From the NCBI GenBank assembly GCA_947179485.1, contig OX359247.1, positions 27,628,801 through 27,692,800 of the forward strand: a stretch of DNA of 64,000 nucleotides. Reading direction: 5' to 3'. The notes under the pieces are model-generated. The model saw only the letters and a program-made list of their open reading frames with translations. It made no database searches and had not been told where the DNA came from. The position numbers and the translations under genes are program-made. The stretch's first letter is position 1. Each line of letters starts with the position of its first letter. This DNA comes from Allacma fusca (Eukaryota; Arthropoda; Collembola; Symphypleona; Sminthuridae). Positions 3,049-40,471 of the stretch are shown here, in pieces.

Positions 3049-6000
3049 CTCCTGTAGGGAGCCATTTCCAATGCATCTTCATCATTTTTTACACTTTCCT
3101 TCCTCATTTTTTAATTCCTCCGCTCTCCCTACTCCCCATTAGACTAATGCTACCAGTATTTAACATTAAAGTAATAAGAGACTAATAAAGATACCAAAAC
3201 GGCTACTTTCCCTTAGCTACCCAAACTGGATTTTTTCCTATCTACTTCAAATTATCGAATGAGTTTCCCCTCAAGAATATAATTATTACTATTACCATGC
3301 TAGATCAACAGAACCTCATAAAATTATCAGCATATGAATTTCTTGATAACTCACATGGAAAATATGTGTAGAGAAGCAGGAATCAGAGCCAAAATCTCTG
3401 CTTCAGGCATATATGTACAATTGCCAGCATATGTTAGTGATTACACATACACACACTCACATACACACACACACACACACACACATACACACACACATAG
3501 TGCTGAACGAAAGGGGTGTCGGAGCAAGAATAATATGTGAAAGGGAAACAAAAAATCAAGATTCGATTTCAATAATCATGAGGCACGTGAGGTTGTTTAC
3601 ATGCAAGCCCAGTCTGCCGTAGCCTTAAATTGAGCCTCATGAAGTAACTCGTACTTTGTTATTTCCTACATATGTATGCACATACCTCTAATGTAAGTGT
3701 ACAGAGGGTCAGAGACAGAATACGAGAAGGTGCGGACAGCACTGCAGCACAAGACATAAAGCTAGCAATGGAGTTGGTAATCCGATCTGACATTATCATT
3801 CAAAGTGCTGGCAATCACGGAGACTAACTTAGGTTTTCATAGGGACACGTGACCCTTGCCAGCGTATCTCTCATAATAAAATGCAAATAGACAAAGGAAA
3901 CAACGGGAATAAAGATGTTCTATGAGGGCTGCTGGAAAGCACTCCCAGCCTTCCTCCCAGCCCATGTGAAGCAAGGTTATTTGTGCGGTGACCATCTTAT
4001 ATGATTTGCATTAACTTAAATAGCTTATAATGCGAGTTCTCATGAGTCCGGACTACTAAAAGAGAGAAAATGCTACTGGCATAATGGCTAATAATGTGAA
4101 CCTGCTTCTCCTTTTATGTATTACAAATAGACGGATATTTTTCTCATCACCCATGTCCTCCTCTTTAATCCGGTGTTGGTGAAGTCTCAGTGAGTCATAT
4201 GTGTATACACTTTGAAGGGATAAAACCCTTCACTTATTTAACTCACAATCAGTCTGAACCTCCACTAGGTCTCTAGAAATATCTACCACTATAGAAAATG
4301 TGCACAAGGCTGAAGCCCGTCATCCTCACGCTGTCACTCTCGCCATCACCAGAGGACTGATAATTGTATTTGCAAACGACGTTCGGGACAAGACACAGGG
4401 CAGAGCCGTCATGATCTCAAAACCTGGAGGGTCACGTGGACCTGGTCAAAAATTGTAAAAACAATTGTGGGAGCTTAAAACTTTCCAGTAGTGTATGAGC
4501 GTAAAATGGTGGGTGTTGTTTAGTTACGGAACCAGAAGCTATTATTTGAAGGGTGGCTTCCACAACTTGATCTACTGGGTTGTAATGTGTGTGATTTGGT
4601 GCTTCGGTAAATATAGCACCCATTCTATTGACAATTGATACGATGATCGGCTCTACCCGAAGCGTGTGGCTCCGTGTGAGGATTCTAAACTTGTGTTTTT
4701 TACAACTGATCACAATGTGTGTTCATGCAGGACAAACATATGAATTCAAATAATCGCCCATTAATTCTTTTTTAAAATGCTCCGTTCGGCCGAATCAATG
4801 GGACAGGAAACTCATCTTTGATGAGAGAGCTTTGGTTTCCATTACAAAGCTGCCTACTAACCACGACCCACCGCATCCTTAATGCAACCCTGAAAGAAGC
4901 CCTGTTTGGGCTCATAAACCGTTTTTTACTTGTACCATTGTCACTGTGAAACTGTGAACGTCAATCCTGGAAGGCCCGAACCCTTACACTTCCACGCTCT
5001 GAGGCTCCGTTTCCCAGGCATTAGAATTATTTAAAACCACTATAGAATTTTGCTCGTACCGATCTTTAAACCAACATATTCTACCTGCCTATATTCTGTA
5101 CACATTTTACTGGCAGTACTAAAGACAATGCTTCTTAACAAGAAGAAAGTACTTTTTCCTATCACTATTTTCTTTTGCGTGCTCATTATGCCATCTGTAG
5201 CTCAATCTAAGAACGTACATATGTCATAAAATGTAAATCAAACTGGTTGTAAGTGCCGACGGCGACAAGGCTCTAATAAATGACAAGGTCCGTAGCACCA
5301 GAGAGAATTCTATGCTATATTTAGTCCAGATAGGAAATTCTGCCTCTGCTGAAAGTAATTACTTTTAATAAAAAAACGAAGTGTTGTACATACATCGAAA
5401 GCACTGTAGCATTTCCGATAGTATTATAGCAGATTAACTTAGACTTGAGAATCTTGAAAAATCACCTGACCTCAAAAGCTTGTAGATCAGTATCTTGTTA
5501 GGCTCCTTCACTATACACATATGTAATTATGTATGTATATAATACAATTGTAGTGTATGTATGTTCAATATGTTTTGCAAGTTGAGTTGCTGAAATTAGT
5601 AAGGGACGGGGTTTAAGGAACAAGGCCTGAGAACAATTTTGGTGAAACGGAGGGGTGAGAAGAACATAAGTGTGAAGGAAGCAAATAGTGACACGTTGTT
5701 TACTGACAAGGGGTGGAAGTGAAACTTAATACTGACAAAAGACTCAACCTTTTGTCTAAATAGCCCGTAACCCATAATGTAAGCTTTGTTGGCAGGTAGA
5801 CCACTAGGCCCGCCAATTCCAACAGACGATAATTGAGTAGAAGTTGTGTAGTTGTAGGGTTGTTCTTTATTTCAAGTCTTCGCCTTTTAAAGAGATTCTG
5901 GTTGCAATCCATCAAGAAAAAACGAGACTATAAAACCAACAATTTTTTCTCCAAAAAGATCCGAGTTTACGAAAACACAAAAACAACATCCCCTTAGTAA

Positions 6001-16859: not shown

Positions 16860-19570
16860 TTGAATCATAAGCATGTCTTTTATTCCATATATGAATAAAC
16901 TTATGAACAACTGTAATGAAAGACTTGCGGGTAAATGGATGGGCATTTTAAAAAATACTCCATATCTCGCGGTTGTAGATGTTCACTATATAAATTCATA
17001 TTATTCACATTTCTCTACTCAATACTAAAATAGATACAAAAGTTACAAAATATTACAGACTTTACACAAGTTCGCTTTACTCTTATACTGTATAATTATA
17101 GTATAACTTACACTTAAGAATAATTATTGAGGTTCTAATCTTACTTGCTCTATTGGTCTATTTAATATGTTCAATGAAAGGTGACGTTACTCAAGCGGGA
17201 TAACCTATGTAATAGAATAGGCTGTAAATAGATATATAACTTACAATCTAGTGATTCCCAGCATTTTGTTATATCATATACAAAATGGAAAAATACATTC
17301 CGGACAATTAGCATGAAACGTCCTTAAAACTAGTAGTAAACTCCCAATTGTGTATGCTAATTGTAGGCATTTGAATGGTACTGGATTGAATCCAGACGTT
17401 CCTCGTACAGTAATTAATTGTGTGGTTGTTAATAATTATTATGTATGTTAGTAAAATAACTATAGTAATGATACAAGTTTTTCCTTAGGCGTTTATTGAA
17501 AGACACCTGGTAAAAGGTAAGTCATCTTATGTACATTCGAGATATTTCCCTCTTAACTAATCCCACTCCCCGATGACATCCATACAAAAGTCAGGTGAAT
17601 GATCTGAGCTGTACTCAAATAGTCAACTCACACAGTGACTCCTGCCTTATCATCTCTCCGACTTATTTTACTGTAAAATAAAATTACTAAAATAAAACCA
17701 CTGAAAATTACTAATTAGTAACTAAAACGTATGCACACGACTCATTTCAACACACATATGACAAACAATGACCAGTAGTCACAAAAACATTCCCATAATC
17801 TTCCAACCACTATATGTTCTTGAAACTGTCGTAAATTGACCCAGACTAACCTTTCACAAGCCCTATGAAAATAATTCCAAAATCCCGGGGACACCAACCC
17901 TTGGAAATCCTACAAAAAAGATAAAAACTCAAGTGCCCATGTAATCCCATGGCATCACCAGTACAGTCTACGTCAACGAAGATGGGTAAAAAACTCGAAC
18001 GAATGTGTAGCTTGAATTGTGTATTTTTATTGTAATGTTGGACATAGAAAAATGGTATATAAATATTATTTAAAAAAAAATGCAAAGTGACAATAAAGGA
18101 CGTAATATTGAGAATAAATGGGCAACCCTAGGAACGGCGCTTGCATTGTTGGTTGACTAGGGGTCTCCATCACGTCTTTCTACAGAGATCATTCGTGACA
18201 ATCACACCTACAATTTGATGAGCGCCTTTTGTTCAAAAACAAAATAAATTTTGATTTCGGCCAAATGTTAAAATTAGTCATAAATTCGGTATGTGTAATA
18301 ATGTATGTATGTACCTATATGTACAAAATTCAAAAGTTAGCAAAAACCGTACTCTTCCTGTTTACCCAAATAAATAATTAATATTTGTCTGTATTTATAA
18401 TACAATGTTAGCGAAGAAACTAAACCCCAAAACTAATATTACAGTATCAATGTATGTACTATAAACTCCCTAATCGGATTCCTCCCGTGAAGTATAGTAG
18501 AGCTCAAGTTATTGTTAAAAACTAATCTACCGACAATCATTTCTAGCGTTGATCTAAAATAATAGTCCTTTTAAAGGAATTACATCCATACAAGTACTAT
18601 AACCCCTTACGTACATACCCTTTACGTAAAATGACACATTATGGTAAATAAGTACAATCAAAGCGACCGTATACAGAAGGTAAGCAAATAGGATGTATTT
18701 CGTAAACTCTCATGATAACTAAAAATATAATTATACAGATAAAAACTACAAATAAATAATTAATTACAAGACTATACAAACAAAATATGGCAACTCTAAA
18801 CTAGGGACGTACAGTTTCATATGCAAATACAATTCACATATAATACGTGATCCACTGTACAAGAATGGCATTACAATTAAACCGACAAGTATCTACTCCA
18901 AATTCAGCGTGTGAAAGTATACACTGTCGGTGGCTAGCTCATTGGATCAGGGATTTTGTATATGAGTCTCAATGAGCCCCAATGGTCAAAAATGAATACA
19001 ACTGCGTGAATAGTACAATACGGACAAATATGAGGGAAAGTTAAAGAAGAAGAAGAAGATTCGGATAACGTTTTAACTGTGAACTGTGAAAATAATGATA
19101 ACATAAAGTCAACAATAAAAAAGTGATGACACACTTTTAGTTTGTCGGAGATCATGCCTTGTGACGACTACTTTTACGAATACTTTCCCGTCCCAGCTCA
19201 GTCTTGACGAAAGGCTGTGATTCGATGAACAAATGTTACGCTTTTGGGAGGGACGTTACATAATAATAATAATAATAAGTTGAGCTTCCAGGTTTCGTCA
19301 GGAGTGGGAAGGAGTTGTCCTGAGTACAAACGTTTTTCAAGTACTTTTGGTTGGGGTTGTAGTTACAAGTCCTGCAATTACTTCACAAGTGTATAGAGAC
19401 GACGACGCCAAGAGAAAATTAAACGGAGACCGGAGTTAAAATTGTAGAGCAACTTAGAAGCTTTCTTGAGGATTTTGCCATCTTTCCCATCAGCTGGTCC
19501 CTTCATTCTCTACACAACTGGCTGTGATTGTGGTTGCAGGCTTAAATAAAAGAAATCCTAGTGGCTAGGG
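16860..19570 (-). other. Probable long 3' UTR of the BH3-only gene
   Basis: No canonical AATAAA occurs on the minus strand until 18031-18026, then at 17497-17492 and 16884-16879. Much of the stretch is skewed, with the minus strand G-over-C and T-over-A. For example, 17641-17700 has 3 G and 14 C on the plus strand, and 17761-17820 has 4 G and 17 C. This fits a long transcribed tail. The last signal is followed by a T/GT-rich stretch suitable for cleavage. The exact end is inferred. Confidence 0.4.
16879..16884 (-). terminator. Candidate distal poly(A) signal AATAAA
   Basis: AATAAA on the minus strand, followed within 20-40 nt by the T-rich stretch agttttattttgtctc. Proximal alternatives are at 18026-18031 and 17492-17497. 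Confidence 0.35.
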
Positions 19571-19696
19571 TCAATGACGACGGAGCCAAGCGATCCCCAA
19601 TCCAACTATAGCCAATGTTGGGATGCCTACGCTGACCATAAGCTTGCATTTGAGTCGTCGTCTCCTTTGACTTGAGCGTTGTTGAGCATCAGTGTA
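19571..19696 (-). CDS. BH3-only gene, coding exon 3 (residues 218-258, tail anchor)
   Basis: A strong acceptor (ttattctttccag) opens a 42-codon exon in phase 0 with exon 2. It encodes Tyr218, extending the BH3 helix much as Bim continues with Tyr, then an Arg/Lys cluster, a roughly 20-residue hydrophobic stretch containing Ile-Pro and Gly-Leu-Gly, Trp254, and a terminal Arg-Arg-His. Short hydrophobicity with basic flanks is the known signature of mitochondrial outer-membrane tail anchors; ER or peroxisome targeting is less likely but not excluded. Confidence 0.82.
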   Translation of the reverse strand, partial: YTDAQQRSSQRRRRLKCKLMVSVGIPTLAIVGLGIAWLRRH

Positions 19697-20458
19697 CTGG
19701 AAAGAATAAAATCAAATTATTAGGTTAATGTGAAATGACTCGGTACTCTCTTGTTTCATGTACACAGCCAAAGTTTTATGCATGTACGTATGTATTTGCC
19801 TCCCAAACTGCATTTGTGTATAATAATTCCCGACATAAAACTCCCACTTGAACTTTCTTCTATTTAATTTCCTATCTTAATATCCTATTTTTAAATCACG
19901 TATTTTTATGACTCACTCAATGATACTAACTAACAGCTGAGGAGTAAGAAGACAAGGGCCGTGTAATGAGATAGGTAAAAGATTCGTTTGATGTGAGGAA
20001 ACTTTAAAAAAAAATTTATTAGAGCTATAAACTTTGAAAATCAAATAGGATTCTGCCTTGCTCCTTCTCTGGAGGGAAAAACATAAAAGTTACAGATGTA
20101 CCCGATAGAATTGTTGTTAAACAGAAAAAATCTTATCTGGACAAGTAGTTTAGTATTTTTTTTTACAAGGAGTCTGAGAGAGATGGTGAAATGAGAAAAA
20201 AAAATCCTTGATGATCCCCAAAGAAGCATAAAGAGGGGGATATTTCTCCCTCAAATCATCACTTGAACGATACTGTATGGTGTGTTTTTATGACAATGCT
20301 TTCCTATATGCCTAAGTCCACATAAAAATTTGATCATTTTTTCCCTCAATGAATCTCATAAAGTGTCCTAATTTCCTCGTATAATGTCTTGATGAAAAAA
20401 TCTGATAGGAGTCGGCAGGAGCTGATTCAGACATACCCGAATCTACAAAAGCTCTGCG

Positions 20459-20505
<47 letters not shown>

Positions 20506-23500
20506 CGGAAAGTGTAGTAATAGCAATAACTGAGTGACAGTAACGTGTAGGAAAAATGCGATAGGGTATAAAAAAAAAAGGAGTACATAGAAGAGGGAGC
20601 GAGAAAAAAGTTTAATTAGGGAATCCCATCACCTCATATCATTTATTAGATCCCCTGAAATCTTACTCGTAAAAGTCAATGGGCTTCAAAAACAAAAAGA
20701 GAAAAAGGGTTTCCATACACACTTTCTTCCCATGTAGTTTATTCTTTCGGGATTTTTACTTGAGCGTTATAAAAGTCTCATCAGACGTATTTATGTACGA
20801 TAGGGAAAAAAAACATGAGAAGAAATATCTCTGTACTAAATGACGGCGCAGTCAAATAATTGCTCACTGTTAAAGTAATACTTGTTGGTGCGATATTTTC
20901 AAAGAGTACGGAACTATATAGAATAAAAACTCATGTATCTTTCTGCTGGAAAAATGCCAAAGGCTTTACGAAGCAAAACAGATGACTTTCCACACAGGGA
21001 GCTCCTCCTGAGCAAATACAAAGTTTCAGGAAACCATGAGCCGTGAACAAGCCCAAAAGTTGTTCCTGATGAGAAAGTCTTATTGTTAAAGCACATGAGG
21101 GAAAAAAAAGTTGTAGACAGTCTCTACAGTATAGCTCAGAGGATGAAGGAATTCTAAATGAAATCCAATGTCAGTGCAGTATCAATGAGGCGTATAATTA
21201 AAGTGTCAATGAGGTGGTAAAAGAAGAGTAAATTTATGGGGCACCTACCTCTAATTGGAAGTGATCCGCAATGGCCCGGAGTTCCATGCCTGCTTGTTGC
21301 CAGGGTCCGACTAATAACTTTAGTTGCAGTCTCCAGTCTGCTCGTCCAGGTCCAGGCAACTCTTCCATCCTGTCGTTGGGTTCATTGTTATTGCTACTGG
21401 GAATGCGTGGTCGGAGACTGTGACGATTATTGAAATACTCATCCACCAAGCAACCTTCGTAAGTGAAGTCCACGGAGAGACCCGCGTGACACTCGATGAT
21501 GTCTGGTAATGGGAGTGACTGCAAGGGCTGGGACTCACCAAGTTCTTCGTCAATCCTGAGCCTCATTGAACTTCCCCTTTGATTATCTGTGCAAATAAGG
21601 ACATGAGTTTTCACTTGATTGAACTCAATCAACAAATTCAACTATCTCTAGCACCATCTCCATTACGATTTACGATTACTGTATCTCAATCCTACTTCTT
21701 AGGAACTCTGTGAATTGATCCTCAGCTCCAAAGTCCTAACCCTACTGTCTCTTATCTCAATGTTCGGACACACTCACCAGAGAAATTTGAAGGTGACAAT
21801 TATTATTTGTAGAGCTTTTGTACATTTACAACATTTTGACCCTCTCTGCTATGAAATGTTCTGAAACCTGTCCACTGGTTCTCAACTGTGCTGCCTCATA
21901 TTTATTTAGCTTGTAGCTTCATGTACTGTAATTTATGCCTATAACTAGTATTTAGCTATACTATGAAAAAGTTTGGAGGGAGTGTGAGCATTCGTGCTTG
22001 AAGTCGTACATATTTCCGGACTTCCCACTTTCCCACATATGCTCTTAGAATTATTTACTCAAGCCATCCCTACTCACTACATAACAATAATTACTCTTAC
22101 ACACACTTACTGTAACTCTTGCATGGAATGCACTGTCGACGGCCAGCCTACTGCCTACCTGCCGACGCGTAATAAAAAACGTTTGTGTGTGCATGCATTT
22201 AAGAATTGAAGGAAGATCATGCCATAACCTGCCTCGAGAGCCTTGAGAAGTCATCGACCTAAAACGGCATCCTAAAAATTAGTTCTGTGGGTCGAGCGGC
22301 GAAAGTATAAGTACTACAGGAAATAAATAAGCCTTCAACCCTAAATCCGTTCCTGTCATTAGCCCCTGTCCTCAAGAGGTTTCATAACCTTTATTTTTAC
22401 TTGTATGTTCTATAAATATACACGTTCTACATAGTACTTCGTACTGTAAATCCTACAAGAGAGTCAGGTTCATGTGTTAGATTTAATGTTTATGTTTTCC
22501 CAATGAACCTGTCAGTGGAGCCAATTGACTTTGGAAGTTGATCAACTTTGGTGAATGAACAACTCCTATCTTGTCAACACTATTGACATTACTTGAGAGA
22601 ATAGTCAACACGTGTAAATATATGTGTAGATTAACTGAGGGAGTACTTTCTTGCCCTTTTATGAGGACTCAATCTAAAGAATTCCAGACGATCGGAAAAC
22701 TGCTCCCAATTATTGGTCCATAGATATCATTACTAAGTGAACAAAGTAGCTACGTGCGGTTCGTAATTATGCAAATCGTACGTCTGACGGGTTTTTGGTT
22801 TTGGTGTTAGAATGCATGATGCAACCATTCTTTGTTCAGTTAATGCAAATCACTTTAGTGTTATCGACACATAACTTGCCTCCCAACTCAATTCCTACAT
22901 CCATTCCAGTTGATGCTAGTTAGTTCCTTCCTCCATATATTTTAGTGCAATGGAAATTGAGGGAAATAACCCCCTAGTTAGAAATGACTACAAAAAACTG
23001 TGGAATTTAACAATTAGGTCAATTCCTATTTGGGTATAATTAGCCAGAGTTCAAGAAGGAAAGGCGGTAAGCTTGAACTTGAATTCCTTATCGAAACAAG
23101 GAGGCTGATAAGAAAAAAATAAAACATTTCATACTCAAAGTGTCAGGTTTTACAATCCCTGCTATTACGTAGACTGAAATTTAACTAATTACTTTATTAT
23201 TTACGCCACAACTTTTTTCCAAGTTTCTTTACACATTTACAGTAGATATACATAATCCCATGCACAATTACAACTCATTCATGAGGTCATCCGAAGATAC
23301 CTTTGTAGGAGTAAGCCCAAAGTTGCGCTGTAAATGATAAAATGTTACAACGTTGCCCAGGTTGTGACTTATGACTACTATCAAACTGTAAATGCCTAGA
23401 CTTTACCTCAAATCATTCCTATACTATTTTTGAAAAACAAAGCAACACTTATTGAATGGACGGGGAGCAAAACAGTTTCATTCAAGGAAATAAAAGATGC

Positions 23501-24791
23501 AAATGTTTTTGGACTTCATTGACGGCTGCCTCTGAATCCCTATTTGTTTTAAAATATTCTTTTTTAAACTAATGAAGGTAGCAAGTACTACTACAAACTG
23601 GATTGTACCAAATATTATCGTGGATAGTGTAGTAATTATTAGAATAACGTTACGCAACAAAAACATCATGTAGGAACATCCGAATCTATTTCGGTACTGT
23701 GTATTTACACATGTCTCACACTGCCCCATACCAAGTTTTAATTTTAGTTTTTAGTATGTACTTACAGATATTTCACATTACCGCCAGAACAAGTACAATG
23801 AGCTTACGTACAAAGATACATTTTAAATTCCCTAAATTAAACCCATGCTTTGAATTCTAATATTTTTTCCGACCATGCTAATTTCTCGTGTTAGAAATGG
23901 CTAATCATTATTAGGAAGGGAAAAGCGCGTGGTAATACGTCAAATATTATTATTCCTCCCAGGGCGAACTAAATTCCTACTGCACCACACATCACAATGA
24001 TAACAGTCACCCACTCCCTCACTCTCCACAACATGAAGAGAAAACCTGAACTCTAATCCTATCCTCTACACAACGTGGACTTTTGTTTTGAATAATAATT
24101 ATTGAGTGATGAAGTCATCATTACATTGCTATGTACACAGCTGAGTTAGCGCCTTTGATGGGCTTAGGTCAATAGCACTATGTAATAATTTATGTAACAT
24201 ACGTTTCATCCTTTTTTATAAACGATATCAAAATTAAGTTCCTATATGTACAAACTGTATTATAATATTTTTTTTGTGGATAAATTTGTTAACTACACTT
24301 TCACTGAAACTACACATGATTTTTGTAGTAATTGCTCAAAATATTTAAATTAGAATGACACTACAAATAAATTTGTTTCCTCAATGTAAAAACTAATGTA
24401 AATAATCCCAGTGGAGGAGATACACTAACATTTCTATAGTTATTTCTAACTGAAAATAATAAGAAAGTTGGTAATTACCGGTATTGTTGACCCGTTGGGG
24501 CTCCATGGTGGGTTGGGAGCGGGACGTAATCTGTGGAGTCACAATGTGGGTCTGATAAAAGGAATATAATTCCTGGATCAATTGATGTGGAAACGAAGCA
24601 ATGTTAATGGGCTGTTGAGGTCTTTCCCTTAAAGTAACTCGATTCACTTGAGTATTAGCAATAGTGTTTTGTCTTTGAGCAGTAGAATTATTATTTGCGT
24701 CAACTGGGCCAATTCCTTCTGGGGTGTAGTAAGGTATGGCCATAACTGTGATGAACTTGTCTCTAAAATCAACACTGATGCTGATATCCAT
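19571..24791 (-). CDS. BH3-only apoptosis regulator (Bim/Bmf-like), three coding exons
   Basis: Spliced CDS: join(24791..24479, 21586..21249, 19696..19571), 777 nt, 258 residues plus stop. Seen: both introns are GT-AG and the phases match (phase 1 at residue 105, phase 0 after E217). Residues 203-217 (AGMELRAIADHFQLE) fit the BH3 pattern, with L207, I210, small A211, invariant Asp D212 and F214; compare Bim ELRRIGDEF and Bmf KLQCIADQF. Residues 236-255 form a hydrophobic tail anchor preceded by a basic cluster (R228-R231, K233, K235) and followed by R-R-H-stop. No BH1 NWGR-type motif is visible. Known for the family: BH3-only proteins insert the BH3 helix into the groove of BCL-2 proteins and trigger BAX/BAK-type permeabilisation at mitochondria. 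Inferred: a pro-apoptotic initiator at the outer mitochondrial membrane. Residues 1-190 look mostly disordered, as is usual for the class. The family call rests on a short motif plus the anchor, so a different tail-anchored protein remains possible. Confidence 0.82.
19697..21248 (-). other. Intron 2 of the BH3-only gene
   Basis: A 1.55-kb phase-0 intron, gtaggt to ttccag, separating the BH3 exon from the anchor exon. It carries a 40-bp (CT)n tract at 20464-20503 and otherwise AT-rich sequence with no coding signal I can support. Confidence 0.75.
20464..20503. repeat. (CT)n microsatellite
   Basis: A pure dinucleotide run of about 40 bp inside intron 2 of the BH3-only gene. It reads as (GA)n on the transcribed strand. 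Confidence 0.95.
21249..21586 (-). CDS. BH3-only gene, coding exon 2 (residues 105-217, BH3 domain)
   Basis: The acceptor is tttgcacag before ATAATCAAAGG and the donor is TTAGAG before gtaggt, close to consensus. The first two bases complete the codon begun in exon 1 (G+AT, Asp105). The exon holds an acidic, proline-containing region (residues 115-175), then a Trp/Leu-rich approach (W189 to W200) and the BH3 helix at its extreme 3' end. If intron 2 is not removed, translation adds only Val-Gly-Ala-Pro before TAA, giving a 221-residue form with BH3 but no anchor. Confidence 0.85.
21587..24478 (-). other. Intron 1 of the BH3-only gene
   Basis: A 2.9-kb phase-1 intron, gtaatt to gcacag. It contains two perfect ATGCAAAT octamers (22769-22776 and 22843-22850). 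No other coding exon was recognised in it. Confidence 0.75.
22769..22850 (+). promoter_or_regulatory. Paired octamer (POU-type) sites in intron 1
   Basis: Two exact ATGCAAAT motifs lie 74 bp apart in the same orientation. The second is preceded by CTTTGTT, a SOX-like core, six bases upstream. This is a candidate enhancer; function is inferred from motif knowledge only. Confidence 0.35.
24479..24791 (-). CDS. BH3-only gene, coding exon 1 (residues 1-104)
   Basis: The start is the first ATG after the predicted transcription start; the 212-nt leader contains no other ATG, and an in-frame TGA lies about 25 nt upstream. Its context is weak (T at -3, G at +4). A second in-frame ATG at 24743 (M17) has a better context (G at -3, G at +4), so a 242-residue form by leaky scanning is possible. 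The exon ends ACC-G before gtaatt, phase 1. The sequence is polar and Gln/Asn-rich, with two Thr-Pro sites (T23, T85) that could be kinase targets, and a TQV core at 47-49 resembling a dynein light chain LC8 site. Confidence 0.75.
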
Positions 24792-25003
24792 AAAATATCC
24801 ACACACCACGAATGTTCAGTTTGTTTTGGTTTCTATAATAAAAGTTGAAACACTTGAGAGAGTCTTTTGAGCTTATGGTTTTTGGTTGTAATAATTATAG
24901 AGAGTGACAGTGTTTGCTTGTGAGACACACTTGTCACGGTTGGATCAGGATCGCTGACTGAGGCCGGAGAGAGATGTTTTCACTCTGAGGTCTGGAGATA
25001 AAT
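24792..25003 (-). other. 5' UTR of the BH3-only gene
   Basis: The 212 nt between the predicted start of transcription and the first ATG contain no upstream ATG. A possible alternative splice acceptor (ttttattatag, ending at 24833) could instead join a distant non-coding first exon. Confidence 0.5.
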
Positions 25004-25036
25004 GAGCTCAGTGTTGGATTGAAGCCGGCTATATAC
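25000..25036 (-). promoter_or_regulatory. Core promoter: TATA box plus initiator
   Basis: On the minus strand GTATATAG (25036-25029) is followed by TCATTT (25005-25000), which matches the arthropod initiator TCAKTY. Taking the A at 25003 as +1, the first T of TATATA sits at -32, the usual spacing. No clear DPE is seen at +28. Confidence 0.55.
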
Positions 25037-25371
25037 TACTGATTCAACTGGGTCCTCCGTTGTGGACCTTCCCCTCAAGTTTTACTCCAACGTTTCCCTG
25101 TGTCCTCTCCGTTCTATACACATGGAGAGAGACTTTTCGGTAGGGAGACAAGTACTGGTGAAGTTCTGTAGCTAAGTGGGGGAACTCCCGATACGGAAGT
25201 AGAGAGGTGTCTCCCTTATATATGATTATATGCCTGGAGTATAAGGCTCAACTATGGAACTACCTCAGTGTGTATACTCTAAAGAGGGGAAGTTGACTAT
25301 CCAAGGTTTGGTTGGATACCGTATATGAAGTATTATGTGGAAGATAAAAGATATACAAGGCTCTGTCTCTG

Positions 25372-25402
<31 letters not shown>

Positions 25403-39417: not shown

Positions 39418-40471
39418 TTACTTTTTTCCGCTTCCAGTGAAAAACCTGCTGTATACCGCACAGAGCTGGGAAGAAGACGAAGAAGAAGAAGAGTAGCTGG
39501 AGTCTTATTCCTCTTTATAATATGCTAACGTCAGAGAGAGAGAGAGAGTCCTAAAATCCTGTATTTTTACAATACTCAATTATATCGTATGTGCATGTAT
39601 TTTTTTTCCAGGGAGCTATAATAATTATATATAGTTGGTCTAATACTGTGCAGTCCCTCTGGAGATGAGCCTTATAGCATGCTGGTTTACAAATTGACGT
39701 GAAGAGCCTAAGATAATTGGAGATATGGTAAAGTTCACGTGGTTTGTTTATCTTCTTCATGATTTACCAATTAAAAGTGTTTCCCCGAAGTGTTCCTCTT
39801 AAAGTGTTTTGAGGGAAGGACTCATATAGTTCGGAGGATCAGCTGCGGGAGAGAGCGTAGTGGGGCTGTGTCCTTATAAGGTGAAACTGGAAGGAAAGAG
39901 TCGTCTTCGATGAGAAAGATAAGGTTTGCACGTTTCCTCCACGGATATGATCGTGACTGGGGTTGCTCTTGGAAAGGGTTGATGTGTAGATATATGTATG
40001 TATGTCCATGTGCAGACCTGCTGCCAGTCCTACTTCTTACGTGTGCCCAGGCTGAGTTGCCGCTGTAAAAAGGGAAGAAAAACCCTGCGGAAAACTTGTT
40101 GCTGGCTCAGTTGCTTTGGATTTTAGTGCGAGGCAACGCAGCCTCGATGAAGTGTGGCGGGCTCAAGTCCAGTATCCATTGGATTGGGTGTGTTGTCTGA
40201 AAAGTAAGGATGTACTCACATGTGGAGATATGATAGAGTAGGATTTCCCTTTAAATCTGGGTTCTTTCCTCGCAGCCAGACGTGCATGTGGACTTATTGT
40301 TAGTCTTTACGGATCAACTGGATAAACCATAGCAAATCTGGCAATGGGTTTTCAACATGTGTCTTTCTCTTTTTCTTACTTTCTTATGCGTACGGAGCTT
40401 ACACTCTGTTGGGGCATGAGACTTGCTGATACTTCGCTGTCTTTATTTATATAAGAAGAAGGATGGGGAGT

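Follow-up and report, generated by a model that had tools for sequence, protein, structure and literature searches.

A candidate BH3-only gene with a putative tail anchor in the collembolan Allacma fusca

In the present work, we describe a locus in a 64,000-nucleotide stretch of Allacma fusca DNA (contig OX359247.1, positions 27,628,801 to 27,692,800; hereafter the window) that combines a splice-compatible gene, a BH3-like motif and a hydrophobic C-terminal tail, and that leaves no room for a BCL-2 fold. As judged from sequence, a small gene with a BH3-like motif beside a putative tail anchor and devoid of a BCL-2 fold is well supported. That this candidate is indeed an intact, tail-anchored BH3-only gene is a reading to which we give an even chance of being correct.

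Gene model and surrounding sequence

Rebuilding the minus strand yielded a 258-residue frame from three exons, with GT-AG introns and no stop codon at the joins (Table 1). This reproduced the coordinates and phases given in an earlier note on this DNA, and its numbering of L207, I210, A211, D212 and F214 proved correct in the rebuilt translation. Splice sites were ranked within positions 19000-25400 (377 donors, 430 acceptors) by means of generic matrices. The GC content of exons 1, 2 and 3 (0.425, 0.503 and 0.492) exceeds the intron value, and an equally high GC content was found in 0.1% of same-length stretches for exon 2, 1.7% for exon 3 and 9.5% for exon 1. Besides, the exon 2 ORF has the top protein-like composition score among the 923 ORFs of at least 35 amino acids, this score being a segment sum that grows with length and that uses a generic amino-acid composition. 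Because of the splice ranks, the exon GC content and the composition of exon 2, we consider the locus very probably a real gene, with exon 3 likely to be slightly less sure than the gene as a whole.

Table 1. Predicted features of the candidate gene (positions within the window)
Feature	Positions	Strand	Description
Probable 5' UTR and start region	24792..25060	-	GC 0.413, not exceptional; TCAGT words; in-frame stop
Exon 1, coding part	24479..24791	-	313 nt, leaves phase 1; residues 1-104 and first base of codon 105
Intron 1	21587..24478	-	2892 nt, gtaatt...tgcacag; donor rank 7/377, acceptor rank 9/430; GC 0.356
Exon 2	21249..21586	-	338 nt, leaves phase 0; residues 105-217, carries the BH3-like core
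BH3-like core	21258..21293	-	A203-G-M-E-L207-R-A-I210-A211-D212-H-F214; pattern, PSSM, HMM, hhalign
Intron 2	19697..21248	-	1552 nt, gtaggt...tttccag; donor rank 2/377, acceptor rank 2/430; GC 0.356
Exon 3, coding part	19571..19696	-	TGA included; residues 218-258; Y218, RRRRLKCK, putative anchor 236-254, LRRH end

Upstream of the first ATG (24791), an in-frame TGA is located at 24818-24816. By our reading of the two start contexts, that of a further ATG at codon 17 is the better one, and the protein may hence begin at Met17 and comprise 242 residues. Further 5' of exon 1, initiator-like TCAGT words lie at 24961 and 25042; such words are typical of arthropods, but give weak evidence of the taxon. 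At the 3' end of exon 2, read-through of the donor into intron 2 (21234-21248, minus strand) appends V-G-A-P before a stop codon, and an intron-2-retained transcript would, speculatively, yield a product without the anchor.

As for the rest of the window, its GC content is 0.35-0.40, it contains dinucleotide arrays, and its CpG observed/expected ratio is 0.636. We found in it no tRNA genes, no Rfam match at the gathering threshold, four weak miRNA matches that fall short of the respective gathering scores and no threefold TTAGG repeat. Ten of the 923 ORFs, picked chiefly for high score or length and for lack of low-complexity sequence, were compared with Pfam, resulting in no family above the cut-off and one match below it. 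On general grounds, such a set of features argues against a vertebrate origin and is equally compatible with crustaceans, molluscs and echinoderms. Two protein-like ORFs on the plus strand (3648-3824 and 4258-4455; fifth and sixth of the 923) lie in stretches of raised GC content and returned nothing above the Pfam cut-off, the latter having a single sub-threshold match (E 0.14). The second GC-richest non-overlapping 338-nt stretch (0.506) falls at 39833-40300 and harbors a coding-like ORF without a Pfam match (40056-40238, plus strand); a tRNA-derived repeat was suspected at this position, but the window contains no copy of GGTTCGANTCC, even when one mismatch is allowed.

The BH3-like motif and the hydrophobic tail

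The motif takes the form A203-x3-L207-x2-I210-A211-D212-x-F214. The minimal BH3 core, given as L-X3-(G/A/S)-D in the part of PMC10107002 consulted, is present as L207-R-A-I-A211-D212. Four residues past F214, at the h4+4 position, stands Y218, which is supplied by exon 3 (the junction follows residue 217); this position is aromatic in four of 12 known BH3s, namely Tyr in Bim, Puma and Bak, and Phe in Bad. The h1 position is taken by Ala203.

The reference peptides form a small and mostly human set (11 human sequences and one from worm). With a PSSM built from these 12 BH3s, the candidate scores 10.18, within the leave-one-out range of the known members (3.34-34.46) and above two of them (BOK, 3.34; BAX, 10.05). 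An HMM search of the helix, which the earlier note had put forward as a check, assigns 10.8 bits to the candidate 20-mer, which, as in the PSSM scoring, spans the exon 2/3 junction. This lies inside the leave-one-out range of 6.5-29.0 bits (BOK 6.5, BID 10.9, NOXA 11.9, PUMA 29.0), above one of the 12 known BH3s and level with BID. Applied to the whole protein, the HMM gives 5.5 bits, a value reached by three of 5000 shuffles of the protein. In hhalign, the candidate attains a probability of 14.3% (E 0.0019), compared with 68.7% (E 4.5e-5) for held-out BMF, and its hydrophobic moment amounts to 0.305 when the helix is read in BH3 register and to 0.382 at the best neighboring position, as opposed to 0.456-0.762 for Bim, Bmf, Puma and Bad. 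The former description of a 'textbook' BH3 helix is therefore too strong given the alanine at h1, the low moment and profile scores that few genuine BH3s fall below; we regard the motif as plausible, though ranking low among BH3s. Amphipathicity over 18 residues peaks elsewhere in the protein, in NIASFPHQLIQELYSFYQ (residues 63-80, exon 1; moment 0.456).

The best 19-residue hydropathy stretch comprises residues 236-254 (mean 1.99), and the next best one starting before residue 210 reaches 0.91. It is the one such C-terminal stretch, is flanked by RRRRLKCK and LRRH, and by these features appears to have the form of a tail anchor, in agreement with the earlier claim of a basic-flanked C-terminal anchor. 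Anchors that are short and flanked by basic residues are usually targeted to the outer membrane of mitochondria. Among the phase-0 AG sites downstream of exon 2, 10 of 334 give an anchor-like tail, and among the nine phase-0 acceptors scoring at least 5, solely 19696 does.

Just 21 residues lie between F214 and the anchor, too few to accommodate BH1 and BH2 or a BCL-2 fold. NWGR occurs nowhere in the six frames of the 64-kb window, and the single string resembling W..GGW sits in a 19-residue ORF. This bears out the previous statement that no BH1/BH2 signature is visible, and a diverged multi-domain BCL-2 protein, in which BH1 and BH2 would be placed between BH3 and anchor, was rejected for want of space, of NWGR in the window and of a Pfam match. 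In layout, the protein resembles a BH3-only protein, its BH3-like motif being unaccompanied by further BH motifs or a BCL-2 fold. Residues 1-195 are 61.5% disorder-promoting and 30.3% order-promoting, weak evidence from composition, and the protein is probably largely unstructured.

No Pfam, NCBIfam or PADLOC family matched the 258-residue protein up to E 10, and membership in any of them was rejected accordingly. This holds for the curated Pfam BH3-only families (Bim/Bmf and others) and for the BNIP3 profile. In the PDB, the 78-residue C-terminus retrieved one ribosomal chain at E 0.58 and no BH3 chain, and neither the motif nor the anchor alone had a match. However, human BMF BH3 as a single-sequence control query found just four BMF sequences and one Bim (E 0.18), so the silence of such single-sequence searches says little. 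The 12-BH3 profile, by comparison, gave 160 PDB matches, the best 60 of which include BH3 peptides and BCL-2-family chains. One pattern stretch in viral contigs and 22 in bacterial and archaeal genomes were not confirmed as relatives, and animal genes are not expected there. Likewise, we found no strict dynein-light-chain motif (as in Bim and Bmf) in the protein, no full p53 site in the window (half-sites, 1 vs 1.5 expected) and no signal from forkhead sites (6 vs 4.4 expected in the window).

Chance expectation and competing readings

Could the BH3-like motif have arisen by coincidence? Six-frame counts of BH3 patterns in the window are close to expectation (loose, 3 vs 2.35; core, 5 vs 5.7; tight, 1 vs 0.47), and by themselves these patterns are not beyond chance here. 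In random protein, the candidate's PSSM score was reached at 387 of about 20 million positions, or roughly once per 50,000 residues, which would translate into about 0.5% per 258-residue protein and about 190 occurrences per proteome of 10 million residues. An animal genome encodes about 350 tail-anchored proteins. A motif of this quality within 30 residues of a tail anchor would thus be expected by chance in roughly 0.2 cases per genome. We further asked how often an ORF that contains the motif and spans 60 amino acids or more coincides with a good donor, a good acceptor and an anchor-like tail. A comparable arrangement, covering exons 2 and 3, appeared with four of 150 permuted motifs and in none of 60 Markov windows, the cut-offs (donor 3, acceptor 5, hydropathy 1.6) having been set after the candidate's scores were known. 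The joint arrangement is unusual for one window, and is notable but not proof, particularly because many windows were presumably read. The earlier argument that coincidence is unlikely thus roughly holds within the window, but does not extend to a whole genome, in which tens of thousands of genes offer occasion for such a match.

These numbers bear directly on a reading that we consider a real possibility, at a level clearly short of even, namely that the locus encodes a tail-anchored protein of some other function, whose L-R-A-I-A-D-H-F sequence resembles a BH3 by chance. The motif is short and degenerate, as the above rate in random protein illustrates, its patterns are not enriched in the window, and the hhalign probability is low. 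In the part of PMC10107002 consulted, moreover, both the degeneracy and the homoplastic origin of BH3 motifs are stressed. On the other hand, a look-alike would have to lie about 20 residues ahead of an anchor, the situation for which we estimate the above 0.2 chance cases per genome, and it would have to be extended by Y218, an additional matching position from across a splice junction. Nor was any other domain recognized in the protein by Pfam or NCBIfam that might point to a different function.

Another reading, which we regard as improbable, has the gene model partly wrong, due to another last exon, a pseudogene or a non-coding transcript, in which case motif and anchor would belong to separate products. 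The gene is predicted from DNA alone, and the acceptors at 17909 (8.08) and 16320 (7.20) outscore the one used at 19696 (7.19), with 20068 following at 6.69. In addition, exon 1 shows a clear codon-position (RNY) signal, which is missing in exons 2 and 3; by composition, the exon 1 ORF is 26th of 923 and the exon 3 ORF falls outside the best 60. Within 1.5 kb of the stop codon no poly(A) signal was found, the sole A(A/T)TAAA in the scanned interval (17500-19567) being at 18031, about 1.5 kb beyond the stop. Against this, the alternative exons at 20068, 17909 and 19083 have GC contents of 0.34, 0.39 and 0.37, close to the intron values and unlike exon 3, while the three exons of the model join without a stop codon and through highly ranked splice sites.

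Finally, we consider it very improbable that the protein is BNIP3-like, or a mitochondrial tail-anchored protein of another non-canonical type, and acts via its transmembrane helix (mitophagy or dimerization) and not via contact with a BH3 groove: while the LAIVGLGIAWLRR end of the anchor is reminiscent of the glycine-containing and Arg-ended anchor of BNIP3, the protein has no Pfam match of any kind, the anchor alone has none in the PDB, the sole [WFY]xx[LIV] string (F13-V16) lies upstream of Met17, and the motif looks more like a canonical BH3 than like the corresponding, atypical region of BNIP3.

Proposed action and relation to known BH3-only proteins

If the candidate is a tail-anchored BH3-only gene, its transcription would lead to a protein that is synthesized or released under stress and whose short basic-flanked tail inserts into a membrane, with the outer membrane of mitochondria as the likeliest target. 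An amphipathic helix around residues 199-219 would then dock into the groove of a BCL-2 family protein, where L207, I210 and F214, together with Y218, might fill the hydrophobic pockets, A211 would provide the small residue, and D212 could pair with the conserved arginine in the BH1 of the partner. As an outcome, either a pro-survival partner would be neutralized or a partner of the Bax/Bak/Bok type activated, and the cell, we infer, killed. Tick homologs of Bcl-2 and Bax interact through BH3, as described in the part of PMC8336254 consulted, so BCL-2 partners do exist in at least some arthropods. Binding alone, however, would not settle BH3-only membership, since many human peptides outside the known BH3 set bind BCL-2 proteins (PMC4072508, part consulted).

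Like vertebrate Bim, Bmf, Puma and Hrk, the candidate has a single BH3-like motif and no BCL-2 fold. In the aligned peptides, it shares the xGxEL/IAD core with Puma, Bad and Bmf, and the h4+4 tyrosine with Bim and Puma. In Bim and Hrk, a hydrophobic C-terminus is located behind the BH3, and the candidate resembles them in this respect. Unlike the vertebrate BH3-only proteins, it has alanine at h1 and shows no homology beyond the motif in Pfam and PDB searches, and it differs from Bim and Bmf in lacking the strict dynein-light-chain motif. With EGL-1 of Caenorhabditis elegans, an ecdysozoan BH3-only protein included in the 12-BH3 profile, it has the core spacing in common; EGL-1 is a short protein, unlike the candidate, and the comparison is limited to the motif. 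From arthropods, Drosophila Sayonara (Synr, CG14044) likewise bears a lone BH3 motif. Synr belongs to the coiled-coil family PTHR21974 (two coiled-coil domains with an embedded BH3), has the motif LAYNLGVIGDARK and was inferred in Muscomorpha only, according to the part of PMC10107002 consulted. The candidate differs from it in motif sequence and in the putative tail anchor that follows. In the part of PMC8998228 consulted, three candidate echinoderm BH3-only proteins of 373, 350 and 118 residues are described, which were identified through their resemblance to the human proteins Bim, Bad and Bmf, are mostly unstructured and have their BH3 on a single exon. Compared by description only, the Allacma fusca gene resembles them in its BH3-like motif on one exon and, for two of the three, in length.

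With respect to novelty, a 2022 survey places BH3-only proteins in only some Ecdysozoa, with C. elegans having them and insects none (PMC8998228, part consulted), and the first such protein from flies, a lineage-specific BH3 in a coiled-coil protein, was reported in 2023 (PMC10107002, part consulted). Among the titles and abstract starts of the literature matches listed, we encountered no described crustacean BH3-only protein, which is not proof of absence since most subscription journals lay outside the search. PMC11011146 was rejected as a crustacean mention, as its sole use of the term is in the title of a cited work on Bim in HepG2 cells, and PMC5437397, on crustacean immunity, contains neither BH3 nor Bcl-2. 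The earlier label of a crustacean-type gene is not established by the features of the window examined, and BH3-only candidates are already on record from echinoderms.

In vertebrates and nematodes, BH3-only proteins link stress to BCL-2 proteins. The finding would carry most weight in an arthropod, given that hardly any such proteins are known from this group. That the window stems from a crustacean or other non-dipteran arthropod and that the gene is, at the same time, a canonical tail-anchored BH3-only death trigger is a combined claim we deem rather unlikely. If true, it would mean that arthropods outside the flies use a mammalian-type BH3-only/BCL-2 pathway, be it retained from the animal ancestor or re-evolved, contrary to the view that arthropod apoptosis proceeds mainly via IAP antagonists. 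A canonical tail-anchored BH3-only protein in a non-dipteran arthropod would then offer a concrete gene with which to test whether mitochondria take part in arthropod apoptosis as they do in vertebrates.
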